A stretch of 64,000 nt of DNA from Deltaproteobacteria bacterium (GCA_020354645.1 CP070652.1:3678891-3742890); one strand, 5' to 3'. Positions 24,741-39,480 are shown, numbered from the stretch's first letter. The notes: generated by a model not told the origin, from the sequence alone. Translations and numbers: made by a program.

Positions 24741-26120
24741 ATGTATCGGAAAAAATATCACATACACTTTGTCGGCATCGGCGGAATCGGCATGAGCGGT
24801 ATTGCTGAGCTTCTTTTGAACCTGGGTTACAAGGTTTCCGGTTCCGATCTCAAGGCATCGGATATCACCCAACGTTTGGAGGAACTCGGGGGCATTATAT
24901 TTGAAGGGCATGCTGAAAATCAGATCGCCGGAGCAGATGTCGTCGTTGTCTCCTCCGCCGTTGATTCAGACAATCCTGAACTCATTGCGGCCCGACAGAC
25001 ATCCACACCGGTAATACCGAGAGCTGAAATGCTGGCTGAACTCATGCGGCTTAAATACAGCGTAGCGATTGCGGGAGCCCATGGGAAAACATCGACCACT
25101 TCCATGGTCGCGGCCGTGCTGGGCAGGGGTAATTTTGACCCAACGGTGGTGATCGGCGGCAAGCTCAAAAGCATTGGTTCCAATGCACTCCTGGGGCAGG
25201 GCGATTTTATTGTGGCCGAGGCAGATGAAAGTGATGGATCCTTTCTGAAAATGTCGCCGACCATCGCAGTGGTCACCAATATTGATCGAGAACATCTCGA
25301 CTACTACCGGGATTTAGATGACATAAAGACGGCCTTCCTAAAATTTATTGACAGAGTGCCTTTCTATGGTTTGGCGGTACTTTGTCTGGACAACGAACCG
25401 ATCCAGGATCTTATTCCAAAGATACAAAAGCGCTATACCACATACGGAATGAGCACCCAGGCGGATCTTCAAGCAACAAACGTGATATTCGAAAATTTTA
25501 AATGCCGGTTCACCCTCCAGGAACAGGGCAAGGTGCTTGGCGAAATTCGGTTGAATCTCCCGGGTATCCATAATGTCTATAATTCAATGGCCAGTGTGGC
25601 GGTTGGCATCGAACTTGGTATCCCGTTTGAAACCATCAAAAATGCACTGGAAACGCTGCAGGGGGTTCAACGCAGACTCGAAATCAAGGGGGAAATAAAT
25701 GGCATAACTGTTGTGGATGACTACGGTCATCACCCCACTGAGATCAAAACAACCTTGCAAGCTGCCACCGAGTGCTGGCCGGATAGAAGAAAGGTAGTGG
25801 TGTTCCAGCCCCACCGCTACACCAGAACCCAAGCGCTGTTTGATGATTTCACCCGGGCCTTTTACCAGTCGGATGTGCTCCTGGTTTTGCCGATATACGC
25901 CGCCAGCGAGAAAAAAATTCCCGGGGTAAACAGCAAGTCCATCTGTGAGGGCATCAGAGAACACGGTCATAAAGAAGTAATTTGTAAAGACAGCCTCCGT
26001 GGGGCAATTTCAGACTTGAAAGAATTATTAAAACCCGGAGATGTCTTACTGACCCTGGGTGCCGGAGATGTTTGGAAAGTCGGGGAAGAAATACTCACAA
26101 AACTGAAAGCTGAAAGCTGA
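24741..26120 (+). CDS. murC: UDP-MurNAc:L-alanine ligase MurC
   Basis: The protein has 459 residues. It has the N-terminal [18 protein letters not shown], the ATP loop [15 protein letters not shown] near residue 114, [21 protein letters not shown], and [16 protein letters not shown] in the C-terminal domain. These are standard for MurC, the first Mur ligase. The last codons and the stop are built from the tandem heptamer CTGAAAG (26103-26123), so the C-terminal KLKAES appears to derive from an intergenic repeat. Confidence 0.96.
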
Positions 26121-26130
26121 AAGCTTTCAG
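26103..26130. repeat. CTGAAAG tandem heptamers with an inverted copy at the murC stop
   Basis: Three perfect CTGAAAG units in a row are followed at once by CTTTCAG, their inverted form. The murC stop codon TGA lies inside the third unit. Another AGCTGAAAG occurs at about 26173, shortly before murB. The array is short but perfectly regular. Confidence 0.7.
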
Positions 26131-26188
26131 AAGGAACACATTTTATTCGCATCAGCCTCGCATTTGAACCTAAGCTGAAAGCCTTGCG

Positions 26189-27145
26189 ATGCCACTTGAC
26201 CGTGATGCAAAAAAATGGCTGAAACATCGATTCGGTCAACACATTAAATTTGACGAGCCCATGTCCAAACACACATATTTTAGGATTGGCGGAACGGCTG
26301 ATGCCTATCTGGTGCCGCCAGACCGGAAAGATTTGATTGAACTCATCCAATGGGCCAAGCAAAGGCAACAGCCTTATCTCGTCATCGGAGACGGGACGAA
26401 TCTATTGGTAAGAGACGCCGGCATTCGCGGACTGGTGATCGCGCTGACAAAATGCCTTAATCATATTACGTGCACCGAATGGCGCAAAAAAAAGGCTGTC
26501 GTTTCTGCCATGGCCGGGGCCAAATTACAGGCCTTATGCAAATTTGCGATCAAATCCGGTCTTGCCGGAATGAATTTTGCCATCGGAATTCCGGGTACTG
26601 TCGGCGGTGGTATAATGATGAATGCCGGCACCGCTAAGGGATCAATCGGAGATGTTCTTGATTCCATCGAAGTTTTGCTTCCGGATGGTCAGGCTGTGAG
26701 AATCGGAAAGGAAAAACTTGATTTTGAATACAGAAACCTTTCACTAAAAAAGAGGGAAGACCTCGAGGCTGAAGGAAAACCGATTATCCTCGAAGGTCGT
26801 TTTCAGCTGTGGCATTCCGACGCCGGATACCTGAAAAAAGAGGCACAAGAATTGCTGAATATCCGAAAAAAAACCCAGCCGACCAATTATCCCTGTGCCG
26901 GTTGCTTTTTTAAAAATCCCCCTGCTGGAAAAACGGCCGGCGAACTTATCGAACTGGCCGGTCTAAAAGGTAAAAGAATCGGTGGCGCAGAAGTTTCCAC
27001 AAAGCATGCCAATTACATCATAAATTCCGGCAATGCAACCGCCAGCGATGTTATTGCCCTGATGGAAATGGTACAAAAAATCGTATCGCAAACCTTCAAC
27101 ATTGAGCTAAAACCCGAGGTTAAAATTGTTGGGCCACAGGTATAA
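26189..27145 (+). CDS. murB: UDP-N-acetylenolpyruvoylglucosamine reductase MurB
   Basis: The 318-residue FAD enzyme has HTYFRIGGTADAYLVP, the FAD-binding VIGDGTNLLVRDAGIRGLVI, GIPGTVGGGIMMNAG, and the active-site segment CAGCFFKNPPAGKTAGELIE. It reduces enolpyruvyl-UDP-GlcNAc to UDP-MurNAc with NADPH. The proton-donating serine of the usual AGSxFKNP motif is a cysteine here (Cys239). The gene overlaps ftsQ by 20 bases. The position between murC and ftsQ is classical. Confidence 0.95.
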   Translation: MPLDRDAKKWLKHRFGQHIKFDEPMSKHTYFRIGGTADAYLVPPDRKDLIELIQWAKQRQQPYLVIGDGTNLLVRDAGIRGLVIALTKCLNHITCTEWRKKKAVVSAMAGAKLQALCKFAIKSGLAGMNFAIGIPGTVGGGIMMNAGTAKGSIGDVLDSIEVLLPDGQAVRIGKEKLDFEYRNLSLKKREDLEAEGKPIILEGRFQLWHSDAGYLKKEAQELLNIRKKTQPTNYPCAGCFFKNPPAGKTAGELIELAGLKGKRIGGAEVSTKHANYIINSGNATASDVIALMEMVQKIVSQTFNIELKPEVKIVGPQV

Positions 27146-28049
27146 TGCCAAAAAACACTCCCGCAGGGGCCATCCAGAAAAACGTCGCCGTCCCATCAAA
27201 CACGTTGGGCTTTTGACAAAAATGGTGACCATTGTTGTGCTGGTGGCATCCATGAGCCTTGTGTTTATATTGATCCACGACCTTGTTACTCAAATTGCGT
27301 ATTTCAGGCTAAAAAATTTGGTTATCAGCGGCCTGCAACGGCTATCTACAGAACAGATACGCAAACAGACCGATATCCACCATGGGATAAACTTGCTGTC
27401 CATCAATCTTTCTCTGGTGAGAAAAAGACTGCTGGTCCACCCGTGGATCGCTGAAGCGACAGTCAACCGGGAGATTCCAAACGAAATTCATGTTTCAATC
27501 AGGGAACATATCCCGTTGGCCGTCGTCGATCTGGGTCGTAAATACCTGATTAGCGATAGGGGTATTATCTTTAAGGAAAAGGAGATATCCGATCCTGACA
27601 ATCTGCCGATCGTCCGCGGCCTGAGGTATTCGGATATCAATATCTCCGGAGAAAACAACCGATCATGGTTTAAAAAAAATCGTCTTCCAAGCGCCGGCGC
27701 CCCCAGCCGTTCAGGCAGCAAGAACGTCAACAGCTATCCGCTAAATGCCGTTATGGAAATTCTGCACCTTGGCCAGAAGAAGGGAAGTATACTGCCCAAC
27801 CATCGCATCAAACAAATCCGGATTGATAGGGATATCGGCCTGACGCTCTACCCGTTGGATACCGTCCGAGAAATCAAGCTGGGATACAATGACTTTTCTA
27901 GCAAGTATGACGTGCTTAGAAAAGTTCTTATGTATATTAAAACCGGAAAAATAAAAAACTTTGCGGATTTTGATTCAATTGATCTCAATAATTTAAATCG
28001 CGTCGTTTTACATCCCATCAAACCCGCAAAAGACCATAAGGAGGTTTAA
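27126..28049 (+). CDS. ftsQ: Cell division protein FtsQ
   Basis: The 307-residue bitopic protein has a basic N-terminal tail, one membrane span (about residues 33-54, MVTIVVLVASMSLVFILIHD), a POTRA domain beginning FRLKNLVISGLQRLS, and the FtsQ domain (WIAEATVNREIPNEIHVSIR). The first codon is TTG, preceded by GAGG at a suitable distance inside the end of murB; the next codon is also TTG. FtsQ links FtsL and its partners to the divisome. A stretch of about 25 residues around SAGAPSRSGSKNVN is a low-complexity insertion in the FtsQ domain. Confidence 0.93.
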   Translation: MLGHRYNAKKHSRRGHPEKRRRPIKHVGLLTKMVTIVVLVASMSLVFILIHDLVTQIAYFRLKNLVISGLQRLSTEQIRKQTDIHHGINLLSINLSLVRKRLLVHPWIAEATVNREIPNEIHVSIREHIPLAVVDLGRKYLISDRGIIFKEKEISDPDNLPIVRGLRYSDINISGENNRSWFKKNRLPSAGAPSRSGSKNVNSYPLNAVMEILHLGQKKGSILPNHRIKQIRIDRDIGLTLYPLDTVREIKLGYNDFSSKYDVLRKVLMYIKTGKIKNFADFDSIDLNNLNRVVLHPIKPAKDHKEV

Positions 28050-28050
28050 G

Positions 28051-29277
28051 ATGCAGGGACAGGATCAAATTGTCGTTGGCCTGGATATTGGGACGACAAA
28101 AATCTGTGCCGTGGTCGGTGAATTATCCGGGGATCGGATAAACATCATCGGAATCGGCACCCATCCTTCCATCGGGCTCCGCAAAGGTGTTGTTGTAAAT
28201 ATCGAATCGACCGTAGAATCGATAAAAAAAGCGGTTGAAGAGGCGGAACTTATGGCAGGTTGCGAAATATCATCCGTATATGCGGGAATCGCCGGGGGAC
28301 ATATCACCGGCTTCAACAGTAGAGGGATTGTCGCCATAAAGGGAAACGAAATTAAGGAGAACGATGTGGATCGCGTGATCGATGCGGCACGGGCAGTTGC
28401 AATACCCATGGATCGCGAAGTCATCCATGTGCTTCCCCAAGAATACATTGTCGATGATGAACGGGGCATTCAAAACCCTGTCGGCATGGCCGGCGTAAGA
28501 CTTGAGGCAAAAATTCATATCGTCACCGGGGCAGTTACTTCGGCCCATAACATCGTCAAATGTGCCAACCGATCCGGCTTGGATGTATGCGATATTGTTC
28601 TTGAATCTCTGGCTTCCGGAGAAGCGGTGCTGACCGAAGAAGAAAAACAATTGGGTACGGGGCTTCTGGATCTGGGAGGCGGCACCACCGACCTGGCGAT
28701 ATTTTCCGCTAAAAATATCAAACATACTTTCGTTCTGGCGCTGGGTGGCAACAACCTCACCAATGACATCGCAATTGGATTGCGTGCACCGCATGCTGAA
28801 GCCGAAAAGATTAAAACAAAATACGGTACCTGTATAATACGGAATATAGGCAGCGATGAAACGATTGAAGTGCCGGGAATGGGAGGACGCGAGCCTCGCA
28901 AACTCCCCAGACAGGTTCTCGGAGAAATTTTGGAGCCCCGGATTGAAGAGATCTTTTCCTTGATTCAAAGGGAAATTTACAGAGCGGGAATGGAAAATGC
29001 CATCCCATCGGGAATCGTTTTGTCTGGGGGATCGTCATTGTTGGAAGGTGTCATCGAGGTGGCTGAATCGGTTTTCAACCTTCCCACCCGACTGGGTAAA
29101 CCGCGGGGGATCAGTGGTCTGGTTGATGTGGTCAATAATCCGATGTATGCCACCGGCGTGGGTCTCGTCATTTACGGTGCCCGAAACAGGGACGCCAAGA
29201 AGTTCAGAATTCGCGACAATAATATATTCAACCGGATCATGACCCGGATGAAGCGATGGTTTAAAGATGTGGTTTAA
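28051..29277 (+). CDS. ftsA: Cell division protein FtsA
   Basis: The 408-residue actin-like ATPase has the phosphate-1 loop VVGLDIGTTKICAVVGE at residue 8, the 1C domain, and the phosphate-2 motif GLLDLGGGTTDLAIF near residue 204. It ends in an amphipathic basic helix (IFNRIMTRMKRWFKDV) that tethers it to the membrane. It anchors FtsZ filaments and recruits later division proteins. It follows ftsQ after one base, with GGAGG as the ribosome-binding site. Confidence 0.96.
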   Translation: MQGQDQIVVGLDIGTTKICAVVGELSGDRINIIGIGTHPSIGLRKGVVVNIESTVESIKKAVEEAELMAGCEISSVYAGIAGGHITGFNSRGIVAIKGNEIKENDVDRVIDAARAVAIPMDREVIHVLPQEYIVDDERGIQNPVGMAGVRLEAKIHIVTGAVTSAHNIVKCANRSGLDVCDIVLESLASGEAVLTEEEKQLGTGLLDLGGGTTDLAIFSAKNIKHTFVLALGGNNLTNDIAIGLRAPHAEAEKIKTKYGTCIIRNIGSDETIEVPGMGGREPRKLPRQVLGEILEPRIEEIFSLIQREIYRAGMENAIPSGIVLSGGSSLLEGVIEVAESVFNLPTRLGKPRGISGLVDVVNNPMYATGVGLVIYGARNRDAKKFRIRDNNIFNRIMTRMKRWFKDVV

Positions 29278-29292
29278 AATCAAAAATTGAGC

Positions 29293-29478
29293 GGTTCCGG
29301 GTTCCCGGTTCAACGTTCAAGGTTATACGCAAAAGCTACAGTTCATTGATGCCTGCTTTTGGCCAGCTGCAACACTCACCCAATGGGTGATGCGACAAGC
29401 GTTGCCGGATTCTCTATGAGGCCTTGCAAGCTAAGACATTGGCAGTGCTCAACCTTGAACCTTGAACCATGAACCGCC
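29293..29478. repeat. 186-bp inverted repeat with 7-bp periodic arms between ftsA and ftsZ
   Basis: The left arm reads GGTTCCG, GGTTCCC, GGTTCAA, CGTTCAA, GGTTATA. The right arm reads GAACCTT, GAACCAT, GAACCGC, its inverted form. The centre has a CACCCAATGGGTG hairpin. The same type occurs between mraY and murD. It occupies most of the ftsA-ftsZ gap and ends about 35 bases before the ftsZ start, so it could affect expression of ftsZ relative to ftsA. Confidence 0.65.
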
Positions 29479-29515
29479 TAACCCAGAAGTTAATAAATCA
29501 TAGGAGGTGGGGGAA

Positions 29516-30691
29516 GTGTTCACTTACATAGACAACGAAAAGTCGGCTAAATTGAAAGTTATCGGTGTAGGCGGAGCGGGTGGTAATGCAATCAATAACA
29601 TGATCGCATCCAAGCTGCAGGGTGTCAAATTTATTTCAGCCAATACGGATGCGCAGGCACTTGATATTTCCAACGCTCCCGTTAAAATTCAGATGGGCGA
29701 AAGGTTGACCGAAGGACTCGGAGCCGGAGCCAACCCGCAAATCGGCCGCGAAGCAGCCCTTGAAAGCGAGGAGGCTCTCAGAAGCGCTTTGCAGGACAGC
29801 CATATGGTATTTATCACTGCCGGATTCGGAGGCGGCACCGGTACCGGTGCAACGCCTATTATCGCCGAGATCTGCAAAGATTTGGGGGCATTGACTGTTG
29901 CAGTCATAACCAAACCCTTTTCATTCGAAGGCCGCAGACGGACACGACAGGCGGAGGACGGCATTGATACCCTTAAAGAAATCGCGGATACAACCATCAC
30001 CATTCCCAATGACAGGCTCAGAGGAGTTGCTTCGAAAAATGCGACAATGCTTGAAATGTTTAGAAAGGCAGATGAGGTATTGCTGCATTCTGTTCGGGGA
30101 ATCACCGATCTTATCATGATGCCGGGGCTGGTCAACCTTGACTTCGCCGATGTAAAAACAACCATGTCAAAAGCCGGGATGGCCATCATGGGCATCGGCA
30201 TCGCCAGTGGTGAGAACCGGGCGACACTAGCGGCCGAACGAGCAATCTCCCACCCCCTTCTGGAGGATATCTCCATTTCCGGTGCCACGGGTGTCTTGAT
30301 GAACATTACCAGCAGCAGTGATTTGACCATGGAAGAAATGACCGAGGCTTCCGACCGGATCTACAACGAAGTGGGTGAGGATGCCGATATTATCTGGGGA
30401 ACGGTGGTGGATGACAGTCTCGGTGAGGAAATGCGGGTGACCGTTATTGCAACCGGCATCGGCACCGGGCCTGAATCGGCAATAACTGAAAAACACGGTG
30501 ATCTTTCGACCAGGGGCAAGATAAGGGATATCACCCCGGCCGATATGAAAACTGCCGAGGACTATGAGGTGCCGACGTTCATCCGCCAAAAAAAAGCAGT
30601 CGGAGAATCTGCCGGTTCCCGTTACAAGGGCATTGTTCTGGACAACAATGATCTGGATATTCCCACTTTTCTCAGAAGGAAAGCCGACTAG
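29516..30691 (+). CDS. ftsZ: Cell division GTPase FtsZ
   Basis: The 391-residue tubulin homologue has LKVIGVGGAGGNAINNM, the GTP-binding tubulin signature GGGTGTGATP, the T7 loop NLDFADVKTTM, and a C-terminal linker ending in LDIPTFLRRKAD, the peptide that binds FtsA. I chose the GTG at 29516 because AGGAGG ends eight bases upstream; the GTG nine bases earlier overlaps that ribosome-binding site. It forms the Z ring at mid-cell and closes the dcw cluster. Confidence 0.96.
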   Translation: MFTYIDNEKSAKLKVIGVGGAGGNAINNMIASKLQGVKFISANTDAQALDISNAPVKIQMGERLTEGLGAGANPQIGREAALESEEALRSALQDSHMVFITAGFGGGTGTGATPIIAEICKDLGALTVAVITKPFSFEGRRRTRQAEDGIDTLKEIADTTITIPNDRLRGVASKNATMLEMFRKADEVLLHSVRGITDLIMMPGLVNLDFADVKTTMSKAGMAIMGIGIASGENRATLAAERAISHPLLEDISISGATGVLMNITSSSDLTMEEMTEASDRIYNEVGEDADIIWGTVVDDSLGEEMRVTVIATGIGTGPESAITEKHGDLSTRGKIRDITPADMKTAEDYEVPTFIRQKKAVGESAGSRYKGIVLDNNDLDIPTFLRRKAD

Positions 30692-32756: not shown

Positions 32757-33203
32757 ATGACCTCAAAGAAGCAACTCCAGCTGGCCTACGGTCTTGCGAT
32801 CGGACTATTTATTGTCGGTGTTGTCTGCTATGCCTACACCGCTTTTTCCGCAAAACCTTTGGATCAACCGATACGGCTCATGTATAAAGTCGCAGCTGGG
32901 AATGTGTTATTTGATCACCAAACCCATGCAGATGAATCAGGGTATGGATTATCCTGCGCAGATTGTCATCATCACCCTGAAGAGGATGAAGAGGCCAATC
33001 AAGCCTGCGGCAATTGTCATGTCATCCCTTCAGAAGCTGAACCCGTACCGAAAACCTGCCTGGACTGTCACGAGGCTGATGAAATCGAGGACGCTATTCC
33101 CATGAAAAGGAGCGATGCCTTCCATAAGCAATGCGGCAATTGCCATGCAGAAATCGAAGCCGGTCCTCTGGAAAAAGAGTGTAATTCCTGTCACGTGCGC
33201 TAG
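32757..33203 (+). CDS. Five-haem class III-type cytochrome c, Rnf-associated
   Basis: The 148-residue protein has an N-terminal membrane or signal segment (residues 10-28, then AFSA). Five haem-binding CxxCH motifs follow, starting at Cys67, Cys84, Cys101, Cys126 and Cys142, with extra histidines (such as FDHQTH and CADCHHH) suited as distal ligands. This is the pattern of the cytochrome c3/c7 group. It has a good ribosome-binding site (GAAAGGA) and lies about 55 bases before rnfC, so it should be co-transcribed with the Rnf operon. It would sit on the outer face of the membrane and pass electrons to or from Rnf. Confidence 0.88.
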   Translation: MTSKKQLQLAYGLAIGLFIVGVVCYAYTAFSAKPLDQPIRLMYKVAAGNVLFDHQTHADESGYGLSCADCHHHPEEDEEANQACGNCHVIPSEAEPVPKTCLDCHEADEIEDAIPMKRSDAFHKQCGNCHAEIEAGPLEKECNSCHVR

Positions 33204-33258
33204 GACGGTATTGTTCCAGCTACACTAAGATGCTCACTTTACCGCAGAAAGTTGACCC

Positions 33259-34542
33259 ATGATAAGAAAATCATTTTTCGGATTTGTAAAACCACGGATT
33301 GAATATGCGCTGCTTTCCGACCAGCATCTGAATATTGTCGAAATTCCTGATCCAAAATCCATAAACCTTCTCGTGGACGGTCCCTTTAATCCCGGGGAAG
33401 CCACTTTACTCAAAGAAGGCGACACGGTAAAAACAGGTCAGAAACTCGCACCCTCAACCGAAAAAGATGCTTATGCGATTTCCCCCGTTACCGGCACTGT
33501 AACCTCCATTTCTTCCTACGCCGGTGATTTTGGCAAGTTTTATACGGCTGTTTCAATTGATGTTTCCGATCAGGAGGAATTCGACGATCAATTCGAAACT
33601 GCATGTGTGGAGACGACCCTGCCGGTTGCCCGGAATTACCTGACCCAATTACCCGGCAAGCTACCGCTAAACTTTTTTAACGACTCTGAAAAACCGATTA
33701 ATACCATCGTCATTTACGGCGGTGACAACGATCTGCTGGTCACCACCAACCAATATATAGTTAAATCCCGCACCGATGATTTGAAACATGGCATCCGTAT
33801 TTTAAACCAAATCAGCGACGTTGATCACATTATTATGGCCATACCCGGCGAATTCTTACAGGGATACGGCCATATCGGTGCGGAGGTAAAAAATGTTCCC
33901 ATCGAATATCCTGCCGCCAATCCTTTCATGATCATGAAAGATACCCTGGGCCGGATCGTGCCGGCCGGAAGACAATCCGAAGATTTAGGGGTGTGCTTTA
34001 TCACCGCAGAGGCGGTTGCTGCGCTTGGCAGCGCTTTTCAAAACGGCCAGATTCCGGTCTCAAAGCTTATGACCGTAGTGGGAAAAAACGGTGATCAGCA
34101 ACTGGTATCTGCTCGGATCGGGACTCCTATCAGCCATATTTTCGATACATTGGGTATCACACTGTCGGAAAAAGACAGAATTATTTTGGGCGGACCGATG
34201 ACAGGCGCCTCCGTATGGTCTGAAGATTACCCGGTTATGCCGGACACGAGTGCCTTGATGGTGCAAGATAAAGAAATGATTCCGTATGTCTCCGATTATC
34301 CCTGCATCAACTGCGGTGAATGTATCAGAATCTGCCCGGTTTATATTCCGATCAATATGTTGGTTCGGTTTCTTGAGGCCGGACACTACGAGGAAGCTGC
34401 AGACCAATATGACCTGTATTCGTGCATTGAGTGTGGCCTGTGCAGCTTTGTCTGTCCATCGAAAATTCCGATCTTTCAGTTTATCCGATTGGCAAAATAC
34501 GAACTGGGTCGGGTAAATTCAGCGGAGGAGGCGCATGGATAA
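33259..34542 (+). CDS. rnfC: Electron transport complex subunit RnfC, divergent
   Basis: The 427-residue protein has the N-terminal barrel-sandwich domain (SPVTGTVTSISSYAG), the family segment GGPMTGASVWSEDYPV, and two C-terminal 4Fe-4S motifs (Cys349/352/355/359 and Cys389/392/395/399). Canonical RnfC also has a glycine-rich GLGGAGFP loop and an ECEPY segment at the NADH/FMN site. At those places I read TTLPVARNYLTQLPGKLPL and IYGGDNDLLVTTNQY instead, so the NADH site may be missing or changed. It overlaps rnfD by eight bases. The subunit identity is secure from operon order. Confidence 0.88.
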   Translation: MIRKSFFGFVKPRIEYALLSDQHLNIVEIPDPKSINLLVDGPFNPGEATLLKEGDTVKTGQKLAPSTEKDAYAISPVTGTVTSISSYAGDFGKFYTAVSIDVSDQEEFDDQFETACVETTLPVARNYLTQLPGKLPLNFFNDSEKPINTIVIYGGDNDLLVTTNQYIVKSRTDDLKHGIRILNQISDVDHIIMAIPGEFLQGYGHIGAEVKNVPIEYPAANPFMIMKDTLGRIVPAGRQSEDLGVCFITAEAVAALGSAFQNGQIPVSKLMTVVGKNGDQQLVSARIGTPISHIFDTLGITLSEKDRIILGGPMTGASVWSEDYPVMPDTSALMVQDKEMIPYVSDYPCINCGECIRICPVYIPINMLVRFLEAGHYEEAADQYDLYSCIECGLCSFVCPSKIPIFQFIRLAKYELGRVNSAEEAHG

Positions 34543-35494
34543 AGCAAAAAAGTTCATCGTTTCGCACGCTCCGTTCTGGCACAATGGGAACAGCGTTAAC
34601 GAAAGATATTATCATATCATGATTGCGGCTTTGCCTGCGGTGCTGCTGGGCATCAAACAGTACGGGATACCGGCTGTGGGTGTCGTTGCACTCTCGGTAT
34701 CTTCGGCGATTTTGTGGGAACTCGCCATGAACTATTTGACCCATCGACCGATTACCATCGCAGACGGCAATGCAGCCCTTATCGGACTCTTATTCGCCAT
34801 GGCGGTCCCCGCCACAATGCCATGGTGGGCAGTGCTCACGGGAACCTTTATTTGCGTAGTGATCGGCAAACATATTTTTGGCGGGATTGGCAGCAACGCC
34901 TTCAACCCGGTAGTGCTCGCGGTTGCGATGGTAATGGTTTCTTGGAAAGATCTTTTTGATTTTGATGGAGCCCTTTTAAATTATGATTTAGATATGGTGA
35001 TGGCATATCCGCTGGCCGCTGTTAAGCATTTCGGGGTTGGGGCAATTGAATCGTTTAGCACCGCAGACCTTTTACTGGGAAGACAAAGCGGCGGGATTGG
35101 CGCCACATTCGGACTGGGACTCATTCTTGGCGGAATCTATCTGATCATCCGAGGCTTTATTCGCTGGGAGATATCTGTGTCCTTTTTATTGGGCGTTTTT
35201 TTGACCGCCTGGATTTTTAATCTGGCCGCTCCGGACCGTTTCGCCGGACCGACGTTTCATCTTCTTACGGGTTACACCTTAATCGGTGCCTTTTTCCTGG
35301 CAACCGAGGATTCCTCTTCACCGGTTAATTTTATTCCAATGCTCATCTATGGCGCGGCCGGTGGCGTCTTGACCGTCCTAATAAGAAATATTGGTGCTCA
35401 TGTGGACGGCGTCGTCTATGCGATCCTAACGATTAATCTTGTAAATCCGCTTTTGGACAAGATCCGACCCAAAGCGGTTGGAAAGGTCGTTTAA
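34535..35494 (+). CDS. rnfD: Electron transport complex membrane subunit RnfD, divergent
   Basis: The 319-residue membrane protein has about nine spans, with IGKHIFGGIGSNAFNPVVLA and GLILGGIYLIIRGFIRW matching RnfD/NqrB. In canonical RnfD a covalent FMN is held by Thr in DxxSGATPLA. The aligned stretch here is DMVMAYPLAAVK (residues 153-164), with Tyr158 where the Thr should be, so this subunit probably does not carry that flavin. It ends one base before the rnfG start codon. Other parts of the membrane core look normal. Confidence 0.87.
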   Translation: MDKAKKFIVSHAPFWHNGNSVNERYYHIMIAALPAVLLGIKQYGIPAVGVVALSVSSAILWELAMNYLTHRPITIADGNAALIGLLFAMAVPATMPWWAVLTGTFICVVIGKHIFGGIGSNAFNPVVLAVAMVMVSWKDLFDFDGALLNYDLDMVMAYPLAAVKHFGVGAIESFSTADLLLGRQSGGIGATFGLGLILGGIYLIIRGFIRWEISVSFLLGVFLTAWIFNLAAPDRFAGPTFHLLTGYTLIGAFFLATEDSSSPVNFIPMLIYGAAGGVLTVLIRNIGAHVDGVVYAILTINLVNPLLDKIRPKAVGKVV

Positions 35495-35495
35495 T

Positions 35496-36092
35496 ATGCG
35501 TGAAATGATAAAAATGGTCGTTGTTCTTACGGTGTTATGTTTATTTTCTGGCGGGTTGCTGGCTGCAATCAAGAACAAGACCAAGGAAAGAATCAAACTC
35601 CAGTTACTGGAATACGTCAAAGGCCCCGCCGTTCGGACCATCTTTGAAGGCGCTTCAAATGATCCCATTGCCGATCGATTTGATCTGAAAGAAGGCGACA
35701 TCGTAAGAAATTTTTTTGTCGGTGTTTTTGAGGGCAAGCCCCGCGCGCTGGCCATAGAAACGTTCGGTAAAGGAGGTTATGGGGGTGATGTGGGACTTAT
35801 GGTGGGCATAGATACGAAAGAGGATAAGCTTATTGGCGTCGGTGTTACCACGCATTCTGAAACCCCTGGAATGGGGGCCAGAGCCGAGACTGATCCGAGC
35901 TTTGTGACCCAGTTCAAGAACCTTTCCTTAAAAGAACCTTTTAAAGTTACCCAAGATGGCGGGTCCATAAATGCCCTTAGCGGGGCAACCTTGACGTCCC
36001 GTGCCGTCTGTGCAGCTGCAACGGATGCGAGTAAAATCTACCAACAGCTTAAACCTCAACTTATTGAAAAATTGAAGGAGTTCGAAAAATAA
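35496..36092 (+). CDS. rnfG: Electron transport complex subunit RnfG
   Basis: About 198 residues. I start at the ATG that follows GGAAAGG at a proper distance; an upstream TTG would lie inside rnfD. One N-terminal span (residues 3-23) leads to a periplasmic FMN-binding domain with GGYGGDVGLMVGID and the flavinylation motif ALSGATLTSRAV, in which Thr carries covalent FMN. The Asp usually found three residues before SGAT is Asn here. No apbE gene for flavin attachment is in the window. Confidence 0.9.
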   Translation: MREMIKMVVVLTVLCLFSGGLLAAIKNKTKERIKLQLLEYVKGPAVRTIFEGASNDPIADRFDLKEGDIVRNFFVGVFEGKPRALAIETFGKGGYGGDVGLMVGIDTKEDKLIGVGVTTHSETPGMGARAETDPSFVTQFKNLSLKEPFKVTQDGGSINALSGATLTSRAVCAAATDASKIYQQLKPQLIEKLKEFEK

Positions 36093-36102
36093 GGGGAAAT
36101 AA

Positions 36103-36708
36103 ATGGCAAAGTCTCTCACACAGGAATTTGTCAAAGGCCTTTGGGATGAAGTTCCACCGTTTCGTCTGGTCCTGGGGCTCTGTCCCACTTTGGCGGTAAC
36201 CAAGGCAGTGGAAAACGGCATTGGAATGGGCGTGGCAACAACGTTTGTGCTGGTGTTTTCCAATATCCTGATTTCATCTATGCGAAATGTAATTCCGTCT
36301 AAAGTCAGAATTGCCTCTTTTATTGTCATCATTGCCACATTTGTTACGATTGCGGAGCTTTTGATGCAAGCGTATACCTATCCATTATTTAAAAAACTGG
36401 GTATTTTTATTCCGCTAATTGTAGTCAACTGCATTATTCTTGGGCGCGCCGAAGCATTTGCTTCTAAAAGGGGGGTCTTCCGATCTTTTTTAGACGGGCT
36501 GGGCATCGGAATTGGATTCACCCTATCTTTAGTTGCATTGGCTGCCGTCCGCGAGCTCCTTGGAACAGGTTCCTTGACGTTCTGGGTAAAACCCATCCAA
36601 ATTCTTGGCCCATCCTTTAAACCGTTTTCATTCATGGTTGAGGCCCCCGGCGCTTTCGTGGCCTTGGGATTGATGCTGTGTATTATGAATCTTGCGGGGA
36701 GAAAATAG
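36103..36708 (+). CDS. rnfE: Electron transport complex membrane subunit RnfE
   Basis: The 201-residue protein has six predicted spans. It keeps the two conserved cysteine motifs that bind an intramembrane iron-sulfur cluster, GLCPTLAVTKAVENGIGM and VVNCIILGRAEAFA, and the C-terminal MVEAPGAFVALGLML. It pairs with RnfA in the ion-translocating core. It has a clear GGGGAAAT ribosome-binding site and is ten bases from rnfG. Length and motifs are normal. Confidence 0.93.
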   Translation: MAKSLTQEFVKGLWDEVPPFRLVLGLCPTLAVTKAVENGIGMGVATTFVLVFSNILISSMRNVIPSKVRIASFIVIIATFVTIAELLMQAYTYPLFKKLGIFIPLIVVNCIILGRAEAFASKRGVFRSFLDGLGIGIGFTLSLVALAAVRELLGTGSLTFWVKPIQILGPSFKPFSFMVEAPGAFVALGLMLCIMNLAGRK

Positions 36709-36717
36709 GAGTCTGTC

Positions 36718-37293
36718 ATGGGTGATTACTTTGTACTTGCGATCAGCAGCATTTTTATCAACAATATCCTTCTGGCCCAATACCTGGGCAACTGTCCCTT
36801 CCTGGGTACGTCCAAGAAAATGGAAACAGCCGTTGGAATGGGAATGGCGGTTATCTTTGTCCTGGTGATGGCGGGAATCATCACCTGGATTACAAATACA
36901 TTTTTCTTGGTAAAATTCGATCTCGAGTATCTGCGTACAGTTGTATTTATCCTGGTCATTGCCTCGTTGGTGCAATTTGTCGAAATGTTCTTGAAAAAAA
37001 GTATCCCGGCGCTTTATGCCGGACTGGGGATCTTTTTGCCCCTGATTACAACCAACTGTGCCGTTATGGGCGTGTGTCTTATTCTTGTCAATGAAGAGTA
37101 TAATTTCATGCAAGCGCTGGTTGCATCGTTTTGCTATGCCGTCGGATTCGCTCTGGCATTGATCCTCTTTGCAGGCGTGCGGGAACGAATCCTTCTGGCC
37201 CGGGTACCAACACCCCTCCAGGATACTTCGATTGCCCTGGTGACTGCCGGGATTCTCTCCCTGACTTTTTTTGCCTTCAAAGGAATGGTTTAA
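36718..37293 (+). CDS. rnfA: Electron transport complex membrane subunit RnfA
   Basis: The 191-residue protein has six spans and is homologous to RnfE. It carries the paired cysteine motifs NCPFLGTSKKMETAVGMG and ITTNCAVMGVCLIL for the shared intramembrane iron-sulfur cluster. The start MGDYFVLAISSIFINNILLAQ is typical, and AGGAGT precedes it as a ribosome-binding site. About 95 bases separate it from rnfB. Confidence 0.94.
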   Translation: MGDYFVLAISSIFINNILLAQYLGNCPFLGTSKKMETAVGMGMAVIFVLVMAGIITWITNTFFLVKFDLEYLRTVVFILVIASLVQFVEMFLKKSIPALYAGLGIFLPLITTNCAVMGVCLILVNEEYNFMQALVASFCYAVGFALALILFAGVRERILLARVPTPLQDTSIALVTAGILSLTFFAFKGMV

Positions 37294-37389
37294 TTATCTC
37301 GAAGGGCAAAATAACTGACCGCTATCCTTTGATATGAATTTATTGCGGTGTGGTGTTGATGATTTTTCGAAATAAATCAGGAGGTAGTC

Positions 37390-39480
37390 GTGATTGAAGC
37401 TTTGCTTTTAATGCTTGGTTTAGGCGGCACATGTGCAGCTGTGTTAAGTATTGCGTCGAGGGTATTTTATGTATGGGAAGACCCCCGTATTGCGGAGGTT
37501 GAAGGATTTTTAGCAGGCGCTAACTGTGGTGGCTGCGGTTATCCCGGATGTGCCGCGGCTGCGGTTGCGGTGGTAGATGGAAAAGCGCCCCCCAGCGTTT
37601 GCATGGTCGGCGGCCCGGAATCGGCTGCCAATGTTGCGGCGGTGATGGGTGTGGATCCCGGCAGCGCAGAAGCTCTGCGCTCTTTAAATACCTGCCTGGG
37701 CGGTCATCGGGCCGAAGATAAATACCATTATTTGGGGGTACAAAGCTGCGGCGCTCTGGCCAATATGTTCGGCGGAAAACGCGTTTGCAGCATCGGATGC
37801 TTGGGCCTGGGCGACTGTATCAAATCATGTATCTTTGATGCCATCAAAATGGGACCTGACGGATATCCCGTTGTGATTGAAAGCAAATGTGTGGGGTGCG
37901 GTGCCTGTGAAAAAGCCTGTCCCAAAAATATTCTGACCGTCAGAACCATGTCCGAACGGCTGCTGGAGTTCAACCAGGAAGACGCCGCCCTTGCCCCCTG
38001 CAGACAAACGTGTCCGGCGGAAATCAACATTCCCCAGTACATTGCCCAGATCAGATCCGGGGATTACGAAGGCGCTGTACATACCATCCGCGAGCGTAAT
38101 CCCTTGCTGCTGTCTTGCGGTCGGGTCTGCCCGCATCCCTGTGAAGACTATTGCCGCAGAGGAATCGAAGACGAACCCGTTTCCATCAATCAGCTCAAAC
38201 GGTTTGCAGCTGATATTGAAATGGATTCGGGCAAACGCTACCCGATACCCTGCGCCCCGGATACCGGCAGAGAGGTGGCCGTCATTGGCGGGGGCCCGGC
38301 CGGGCTGAGCTGTGCGTATTTTCTCAGACGCCTCGGACATAGCGTTACCATTTTTGACATGATGCCGGAACTGGGGGGTATGATCCGATACGGGATACCG
38401 GAGTATCGGCTTCCCAAAAAGGTTCTAGAATGGGAAATCGAAGGGATTCTGAATCTAGGAATTGAAAGCCGAACCAATGTCAGATTCGGCCGGGACTTCG
38501 ACATGCATTCATTGGCCGAAGAAGGTTTTGAAGCTGTGTTCATCGGTGTCGGGGCCTGGAGCGATTACCGTCTGAAAGCCGAAGGTGAAGATCTGGAGGG
38601 TTGTTACACCGGAATCGACTTTCTCACCAAATACGCCATCAATCAGCAAACCGGCCAAGAAATTTACAAAATACCCATTGGCCGCAAATGCGTCGTCATC
38701 GGCGGCGGAAACACCGCCATAGACTGTGTCCGGACGCTCATCCGCTTAGGAGCTGAGGAAGTTTCCATCGTGTATCGCCGCACCCGCAAGGAAATGCCGG
38801 CAAATGCAGTGGAAATTGATGCCGCCGAGCATGAGGGTGTTAAATTCCATTTCCTGGCAGCGCCGGTAAGGGTCATCGGTGATGAACAGGGCAGAGTCAC
38901 CCAGCTGGAATACCTGGAGATGAAATTGGGAGAGCCGGATGCCAGTGGCCGGAGACGGCCGGTTCCGATTGAAGGATCGGAAACCCTGATGAATATCGAT
39001 ATGCTGATCACCGCCATCGGTCAGGGACCGGATATGTCTTTCGTTAAAGAAGACAGTAGCCTCGAAGATTTGAGCGTCACTCGCTGGAATACCATCGAGG
39101 CCGATCCTGAAATATTACAGTCCAACATTCCGAAAATATTTACCGCTGGAGATTCATACACCGGTGCCTCACTGGTTATCGAAGCCATCGGCGGCGGCCG
39201 AAGAGCGGCCAGGGCCATACATCTCTACCTGACGGAGGAAGAGATAAAACCCGTGCCGAAATCCTTGCTCAAAAAGCACATACCCGAATCCCTCTTTGAA
39301 CACGTTGAAGGCATCAAGCCGAAAGCCAGAGCAAAGATGCCCGAACTCCCGGTTACAGAACGCATTAAATCCTTTGCTGAGTCTGATCTGGTACTCCAGC
39401 AAAAAGATGCGCTGGCTGAAGCCGAACGTTGCCTCAATTGCTGCCGAATCTGCTACGACCCGGATGCAGACGTAGCCTGA
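37390..39480 (+). CDS. rnfB: RnfB fused to a GltD/NfnB-like NAD(P)-FAD oxidoreductase
   Basis: The 696-residue product is over twice normal RnfB length. Residues 1-25 form the membrane anchor. Cys46, Cys49, Cys54 and Cys71 make the first 4Fe-4S site (NCGGCGYPGC). Two ferredoxin motifs follow (CSIGCLGLGDCIKSC and CVGCGACEKACP). From about residue 200 a full glutamate-synthase small-subunit-like module begins: iron-sulfur cysteines (CRQTCP, CGRVCPHPCEDYC), the FAD loop VAVIGGGPAGLSCAYFLRR at about 297, and a second nucleotide loop CVVIGGGNTAIDCVRTLI, probably for NAD(P)H. The start is GTG behind AGGAGG. This would let the cytoplasmic ferredoxin arm of Rnf react directly with NAD(P)H. There is no sign of a frameshift at the joint. 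Confidence 0.92.
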   Translation: MIEALLLMLGLGGTCAAVLSIASRVFYVWEDPRIAEVEGFLAGANCGGCGYPGCAAAAVAVVDGKAPPSVCMVGGPESAANVAAVMGVDPGSAEALRSLNTCLGGHRAEDKYHYLGVQSCGALANMFGGKRVCSIGCLGLGDCIKSCIFDAIKMGPDGYPVVIESKCVGCGACEKACPKNILTVRTMSERLLEFNQEDAALAPCRQTCPAEINIPQYIAQIRSGDYEGAVHTIRERNPLLLSCGRVCPHPCEDYCRRGIEDEPVSINQLKRFAADIEMDSGKRYPIPCAPDTGREVAVIGGGPAGLSCAYFLRRLGHSVTIFDMMPELGGMIRYGIPEYRLPKKVLEWEIEGILNLGIESRTNVRFGRDFDMHSLAEEGFEAVFIGVGAWSDYRLKAEGEDLEGCYTGIDFLTKYAINQQTGQEIYKIPIGRKCVVIGGGNTAIDCVRTLIRLGAEEVSIVYRRTRKEMPANAVEIDAAEHEGVKFHFLAAPVRVIGDEQGRVTQLEYLEMKLGEPDASGRRRPVPIEGSETLMNIDMLITAIGQGPDMSFVKEDSSLEDLSVTRWNTIEADPEILQSNIPKIFTAGDSYTGASLVIEAIGGGRRAARAIHLYLTEEEIKPVPKSLLKKHIPESLFEHVEGIKPKARAKMPELPVTERIKSFAESDLVLQQKDALAEAERCLNCCRICYDPDADVA

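Follow-up and report, generated by a model that had tools for sequence, protein, structure and literature searches.

An Rnf operon of Desulfobacterales with altered flavin and NADH sites in RnfC and RnfD

What Rnf does in sulfate reducers is a long-standing question, and the complex has mostly been treated as a ferredoxin:NAD pump. In canonical Rnf, electrons pass from RnfB through the RnfA/RnfE cluster to the FMN of RnfG in the periplasm, return by way of the FMN and then the riboflavin of RnfD to the two clusters of RnfC, and finally reach the RnfC FMN and NAD. An operon within a 64,000-nucleotide stretch of a Deltaproteobacteria bacterium genome (GCA_020354645.1, CP070652.1:3678891-3742890; the whole stretch is called the window, and positions are counted from its first letter) raises the question of whether this route is still present. 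The original prediction held that RnfC and RnfD of this operon seem to lack the canonical NADH/FMN and covalent FMN sites, that RnfE, RnfA, and the ferredoxin motifs of RnfC look intact, and that the complex has a rerouted electron path rather than being a simple ferredoxin:NAD pump.

Layout of the operon and its retained parts

The operon (32757-39480, all genes on the + strand) has the order cytochrome c, rnfC, rnfD, rnfG, rnfE, rnfA, and a fused rnfB, so that all six homologous Rnf subunits, which match Rnf families and solved Rnf chains, lie together. The first gene (32757..33203) encodes a membrane-anchored c-type cytochrome that is class III/TmcA-like; it has five CXXCH motifs and matches to Pfam Cytochrom_CIII and Cytochrome_C7, and its score against the TmcA model (51 bits) is under the cut-off of 114. 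This gene is followed by those for RnfC (427 aa; 33259..34542) and the membrane subunit RnfD (319 aa; 34535..35494), both assigned by Rnf families and solved chains, and then for the periplasmic flavoprotein RnfG (35478..36092), whose start is likely the ATG at 35496, six codons in. RnfE (36103..36708) and RnfA (36718..37293) were assigned by Rnf family matches, and the last gene (37390..39480) encodes the RnfB fusion of 696 aa. Directly upstream of the operon there is a murC-murB-ftsQ-ftsA-ftsZ run together with a radical SAM gene (24741-30691).

Several parts of the canonical machinery are retained. RnfG has its flavinylation Thr within an SGAT motif (35979-35990), and its score against the family model NF045876 (RnfG_DVU2794) is 251.6 bits, which passes the cut-off of 205; canonical RnfG proteins score 126 bits (locus L176) and 80 bits (Desulfococcus multivorans Rnf1) against the same model. 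The paired membrane cysteines of RnfE (C27 and C110) and RnfA (C26 and C114) are present, and these pairs are invariant across the Desulfobacterales loci. The source genome has one ApbE gene, and its Nqr operon requires ApbE too. The N-terminal part of the RnfB fusion (residues 1 to about 195) matches RnfB of solved Rnf complexes, and the remainder (about 196 to 696) matches NfnA of NfnABC, StnC, NfnL, and the glutamate synthase small chain, with scores of 500 bits for PRK12771 and 428 bits for NfnA (9bov). The fused domain contains the dinucleotide motifs GGGPAG and GGGNTA, and we infer that this NfnA/GltD-like domain binds FAD and NAD(P)H.

A second Rnf-type RnfC was not found in the source genome (one contig, 5.57 Mb), where the other strong RnfC matches are an NqrA-like protein beside NqrB and a PduS-like protein. 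The former, encoded in the Nqr operon (L016:1417-2793; G000:C1 about 1365500-1367800), has retained paired [4Fe-4S] cysteine motifs at its C terminus, and the neighboring NqrB has the flavinylation motif GATPL; this NqrA-like protein appears intermediate between RnfC and NqrA. The PduS-like protein (L001:1513-2850; G000:C1 about 3857990) adjoins a EutJ-like gene and has a C-terminal RnfC_N-type domain together with intact GAGGAGFP and SCEP motifs; no other strong RnfC match that was examined in the source genome has an intact loop of this kind.

Residues altered in RnfC and RnfD

Alignment with the solved chains 8ahx, 9eri, and 7zc6 places TTLPVARNYLTQLPGKLPL (RnfC residues 119-137; 33613..33669, + strand) in the GLGGAxFP region, where it replaces the glycine-rich FMN/NADH loop and bears the PG signature of its type. 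Likewise, GGDNDLL (residues 154-160; 33718..33738, + strand) occupies the ECEP region and carries the DxD(L) signature of the type, and VCFITAEAV (33991..34017, + strand) replaces the NVxT motif. A larger alignment, which included Escherichia coli RsxC and the loci of the phylum, consisted of 40 canonical rows and 133 rows of the window's type, designated type II. (The 130-133 type-II rows considered here and below are not all independent, since some genomes occur both in the order sample and among the named contigs; L166, L198, and L200, in which RnfC is truncated or missing, were left out of the counts.) In all 40 canonical rows the G-G-A-F-P of the loop, E-C-E-P, and the N and T of NVxT are invariant. 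In the 133 type-II rows ECEP has become D-x-D-(L) (D in 125, D in 117, and L in 91), the loop is mostly shortened and contains P-G, and NVxT has become S/T-A-E-A. The eight cysteines for the two [4Fe-4S] clusters of RnfC (34303..34455, + strand) are present in 132-133 of these 133 rows.

The score of the window RnfC against TIGR01945, 200.5 bits, is under the cut-off of 245.95. An AlphaFold2 model of this RnfC (31 sequences; mean pLDDT 80.9, with low confidence in the cluster region) has as its best match RnfC itself (8ahx_C, Z 29.8 over 384 residues with an rmsd of 7.8), and it also aligns with 7zc6_C (Z 27.8, 322 residues, rmsd 3.2); NqrA comes next, at a Z of about 22. By its alignment with 8ahx_C, the NuoF-like fold of RnfC is judged to be kept; the ligand-binding residues are lost, and the flavin is predicted to be absent. 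The same alignment rules out the loss of the whole NuoF-like domain.

In RnfD of Clostridium tetanomorphum, Thr153 carries the covalent FMN, and Arg130 and Glu185 are the sole polar residues around its flavin ring (PMC9588780). All three have been replaced in the window. Tyr158 (35006..35008, + strand) aligns with Thr153 of 7zc6 and with the Thr of TATPL in 9eri, and Val130 (34922..34924) and Ala190 (35102..35104), on the same strand, stand in place of Arg130 and Glu185 (7zc6 numbering), an equivalence obtained by counting positions along the alignment of RnfD with the solved chains. Of 49 Thr-type rows, 49, 48, and 48 have the pocket Thr, Arg, and Glu, respectively; of 130 type-II rows, 3, 0, and 3 do. 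The type-II residue at the flavinylation position varies (Y, P, S, D, A, F, H, N, or E). Three type-II members of a single family (L182, L207, and L208) have a Thr at this position in an altered context (AETFL or SETPL), and their RnfD proteins may be intermediates or may have retained the flavin. A hidden flavinylation motif was considered and rejected, given that some matching string occurs in 6 of the 130 rows and none of these lies near the site.

The contacts to riboflavin have fared differently. In Acetobacterium woodii RnfD, they have been reported at N123 and D249 (PMC11889175), which correspond to N124 and E258 of the window RnfD. An N is found at the former position in 112 of the 130 type-II rows and an acidic residue at the latter in all 130 (E in 100, D in 30). 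Because the riboflavin contacts are kept while the Thr/Arg/Glu pocket is gone, the prediction for type-II RnfD is that the riboflavin may stay and the covalent FMN is lost.

Distribution of the losses

Close homologues of this RnfC occur in most of the 146 Desulfobacterales genomes searched. The same operon with the same losses is found in 20 fetched loci and in 80 named Desulfobacterales loci, whose members by name include Desulfonema magnum and Candidatus Desulfaltia, and the order cytochrome-C-D-G-E-A-B(fused) is conserved in Desulfobacterales. The losses are not a matter of chance: an intact loop is present in 0 of 81 Desulfobacterales RnfC proteins (the window plus 80 loci), and a flavinylation Thr in 0 of 78 aligned RnfD proteins (the window plus 77 loci). 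Together with the alignments to solved chains, these counts bear out the original prediction with respect to the missing NADH/FMN loop and ECEP of RnfC and the Tyr at the place of the flavin Thr in RnfD, and the retained cysteines agree with its view of RnfE, RnfA, and the ferredoxin motifs of RnfC as intact. A search for the missing elements elsewhere in the window proteins, by alignment for a GLGGAxFP loop in RnfC and by alignment and motif scan for an ApbE-like flavinylation motif in RnfD, found neither.

Across the phylum (Desulfobacterota), 98 of 247 genomes have an RnfD-family match, and these supplied 80 fetched loci. An intact loop with ECEP always accompanies a Thr-bearing RnfD (40 of 40 RnfC), and for these 40 no linked cytochrome was found on the same strand within the fetched DNA. 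A lost RnfC loop coincides with a lost RnfD Thr, and these losses usually go with the cytochrome and/or the RnfB fusion. In a tree of Desulfobacterota RnfD (a quick tree, built with the motif columns masked and containing long branches), one main split separates 49 Thr-bearing rows from 53 rows, in 50 of which the Thr is lost (SH-aLRT 96); a single origin of type-II RnfD is likely on this evidence. Neither the fusion nor the cytochrome is strictly required, as some type-II members have an RnfB of 271-333 aa, and at several type-II loci no cytochrome was found within the fetched DNA. One subclade of Candidatus Desulfaltia and related MAGs (L079, L080, L087, L091, and L098) has an unfused RnfB of 271-277 aa upstream of the cytochrome and the same RnfC and RnfD losses, which rules out the RnfB fusion as a strict driver of these losses. 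A third form is seen on the Thr-bearing side of the tree (L185, L204, L212, L216, L221, and L224), where the RnfC loop is lost and EFEP replaces ECEP, the RnfD Thr is kept, and no cytochrome adjoins.

The losses co-segregate cleanly and recur throughout the order, and they are not a quirk of one genome. This co-segregation gives good support to the part of the original prediction stating that the complex is not a simple ferredoxin:NAD pump; the path proposed in its stead is an extrapolation from sequence, and the fusion and the cytochrome, on which the prediction had drawn, are not strict requirements of the type. About half of the phylum's Rnf loci that were examined do not have the cofactor sites for the ferredoxin:NAD reaction, which would alter energy-balance models for marine sulfate reducers and syntrophs.

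Both kinds of Rnf can be encoded by one cell. Four genomes (G369, G246, G181, and G370) have one canonical and one type-II Rnf each, and D. multivorans (G010) encodes both kinds 19 kb apart. Its Rnf1 is canonical (GLGGATFP, ECEP, and QATPM); its Rnf2 (L057) has the altered form, with FYPL in RnfD, a cytochrome of 150 aa, the gene order of the window operon, and 51% (RnfC) and 67% (RnfD) identity to the window proteins. Proteomics of D. multivorans recovered all six subunits of Rnf1 and five of those of Rnf2 on every substrate tested (PMC5109826). The presence of both kinds in this organism makes their comparison testable.

Electron route and relation to known systems

Judged by its residues, the return leg of the canonical path (RnfD FMN to RnfC FMN/NAD) is gone from the type-II complex, and the entry, crossing, and periplasmic flavin sites are kept. 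The reading that we favor, with a probability of roughly 0.6, is an Rnf of the Tol2 kind (compared below) with a dismantled return leg, in which electrons enter at RnfB and leave at RnfG to periplasmic cytochrome c, in a direction that is possibly reversible. Ferredoxin would donate at RnfB and/or NAD(P)H at the fused NfnA/GltD-like domain, the electrons would cross through RnfA/RnfE to the RnfG FMN, and RnfG would pass them to a periplasmic cytochrome c, either the multihaem one encoded first in the operon or another, so that they probably reach a periplasmic cytochrome rather than NAD. The retained RnfA/RnfE/RnfD core would carry out ion translocation, and RnfC might have a structural role, be NqrA-like, or serve as a port consisting of clusters only.

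A cytochrome exit is favored because there is a cytochrome in the operon, because there is a precedent in Methanosarcina acetivorans, and because of findings with Desulfovibrio alaskensis. The Rnf of M. acetivorans works without NAD and has been modelled with electron transfer from RnfG to cytochrome c (PMC4023990), and ferredoxin reduces the membrane cytochrome c (PMC3160891). Tests for ferredoxin:NAD activity with D. alaskensis vesicles were unsuccessful, and the proton-motive force is reduced in an rnfA mutant (PMC4841214). The layout of the D. alaskensis operon (decahaem cytochrome, CDGEAB, and ApbE) is that of the type-II loci L158 and L163, and from this layout and the NF045876 name, rather than from its own sequence, we infer that the D. 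alaskensis Rnf belongs to type II. Other considerations weigh against parts of the favored reading. Under conditions in which rnf genes are essential to D. alaskensis, no fitness effect is seen for dhcA, the gene of its operon cytochrome (PMC4215793, PMC4841214), which speaks against an obligatory role for the operon cytochrome; hypothetically, redundancy with other periplasmic cytochromes could account for the missing phenotype. The type-II loci without a cytochrome in the fetched DNA count against a cytochrome exit, and outward electron flow is disfavored because it would spend membrane potential, a cost that ion pumping would have to outweigh. A purely structural RnfC is likewise disfavored, because the RnfC clusters and the RnfD riboflavin residues, which such a role does not need, are strictly kept, and for this we offer no good explanation.

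The same wiring might instead run in reverse, with electrons from periplasmic cytochromes (from hydrogen or formate oxidation) entering at RnfG and reducing ferredoxin or NADP+ at RnfB at the expense of the ion gradient. This is possible, if somewhat unlikely: the cytochrome-linked Desulfovibrio Rnf has been proposed to join the pool of periplasmic cytochromes with NAD(P)H/ferredoxin in the cytoplasm (PMC4287179), and hydrogen and formate are both substrates on which rnf mutants of D. alaskensis fail (PMC4841214, PMC4215793), but the lower proton-motive force of the rnfA mutant suits a generator rather than a consumer, and reverse operation has been deemed unlikely (PMC4215793). The conserved cysteines of the RnfC clusters and the conserved riboflavin-contact positions of RnfD would be in keeping with a pump that still ran from cytoplasm to cytoplasm, in which a different soluble carrier (ferredoxin-like, or a thiol protein) docked at the two clusters as acceptor and the riboflavin bridged in some other way. 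We regard this as doubtful, for without the RnfD FMN no known cofactor joins the RnfG FMN to the riboflavin, and the three polar residues of the pocket are all gone. A more elaborate scheme, which we consider improbable, would make the NfnA-like domain a flavin site of the bifurcating or confurcating kind, dividing the electrons of NADPH between ferredoxin and the core of Rnf, the whole being an NAD(P)H-/ferredoxin-linked, ion-pumping cytochrome c reductase with RnfC and the riboflavin as a separate cytoplasmic half-chain; the kinship of this domain to Nfn/Stn consists of sequence similarity to NfnA/StnC and NfnL.

Retention of the canonical function, with the RnfD flavin bound non-covalently or through Tyr158 and the RnfC FMN held in a remodelled pocket, would fit with the kept RnfC fold and with the newly conserved residues (PG and DxDL in RnfC; D142, Y158, F192, and Y247 in RnfD). 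However, the residue that replaces the Thr varies, Arg and Glu have been lost as well, the loop has become shorter, and the genomes with two Rnf operons named above also encode canonical complexes, all of which make this very unlikely. Finally, apart from the missing motifs themselves, nothing points to a decaying operon or a sequencing artefact, an idea refuted by conservation: the frames are open, the operon order is conserved over Desulfobacterales families, the new motifs are invariant throughout the order, and subunits of D. multivorans Rnf2 have been seen by proteomics (PMC5109826).

Several known systems are close to the window operon. The idea of a rerouted Rnf is not wholly new, as the Tol2-type Rnf (Desulfobacula toluolica Tol2; D. 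multivorans DSM 2059 Rnf2) has been described as having sites for NAD in a large RnfB and an RnfC that is devoid of NADH- and ligand-binding domains, with an unknown acceptor and an unverified mode of action (PMC5109826). By that account the type has an RnfB of about 700 aa with a nucleotide-binding domain, an RnfC without a working NADH site, and a small cytochrome in the cluster; the window operon shares its 696 aa RnfB, an RnfC that by sequence and predicted fold has no functional NADH site, and homology to D. multivorans Rnf2 that extends to its small cytochrome. The difference is that the published RnfC is described as having no NADH domain, whereas the window RnfC keeps the fold and has lost only the ligand residues. 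In the literature covered, which lacks several key papers, no report was found of RnfD FMN loss in a six-subunit Rnf, of the clean co-segregation, of the retained RnfC fold, or of the wider distribution that includes members with unfused RnfB. The kind has been partly described before; what appears to be new is the RnfD part, together with the clean co-segregation.

The Desulfovibrio Rnf (dhcA-rnfCDGEABF; the NF045876 family, whose model the window RnfG passes) also has the cytochrome first in the operon, and the matching loci (L158/L163) have lost the same RnfC and RnfD sites, but its cytochrome is a decahaem protein, its RnfB is unfused (316-333 aa), and an ApbE-like gene ends the operon. 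Many Desulfovibrionaceae have a FAD-dependent oxidoreductase in place of rnfB (PMC11434368), which, judging by the loci studied here, is probably the RnfB fusion. By its published description, the M. acetivorans Rnf is similar in having a cytochrome c gene in its operon, in not using NAD(P), and in the proposed donation from RnfG to cytochrome c; it differs in being archaeal and in having an RnfB that is not described as fused. An SGTF motif has been proposed for its RnfD (PMC4023990), and the window RnfC and RnfD score 140 and 168 bits against the Methanosarcina models NF041837 and NF041838, under the cut-offs of 650 and 400. Canonical Rnf (A. woodii, C. tetanomorphum, and Azotobacter vinelandii) shares the six homologous subunits and the cofactor motifs of RnfB, RnfA/RnfE, and RnfG; the window operon differs from it in having neither the covalent FMN site of RnfD nor the FMN/NADH sites of RnfC, and in having a fused RnfB and an added cytochrome.

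In Na+-NQR, the RnfC homologue NqrA has also lost cofactors, but NqrB keeps its covalent FMN, NqrF takes the place of RnfB, and NqrA of Vibrio cholerae has no clusters; the window operon has neither an NqrF donor subunit nor the covalent FMN site of NqrB. The NqrB chain 9ud3_B has a Y at the equivalent of the flavinylation Thr. We take this chain to be the engineered variant T236Y; in the window RnfD a Y at this position is the natural state. NqrA has been proposed to derive from RnfC through loss of sites (PMC4014512), and type-II RnfC represents a state between canonical RnfC and NqrA. A two-subunit Nqr/Rnf-like complex also has an RnfD-like subunit without the flavinylation Thr, but it has no RnfA, RnfE, RnfB, or RnfC, and its RnfD-like subunit has its own NAD domain (PMC11334425). 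A 2025 review describes the membrane cofactors of RNF and NQR as strictly conserved (PMC12174285); the RnfD loss qualifies this claim, and type-II RnfD provides a natural test of whether the RnfD FMN is needed for ion pumping.
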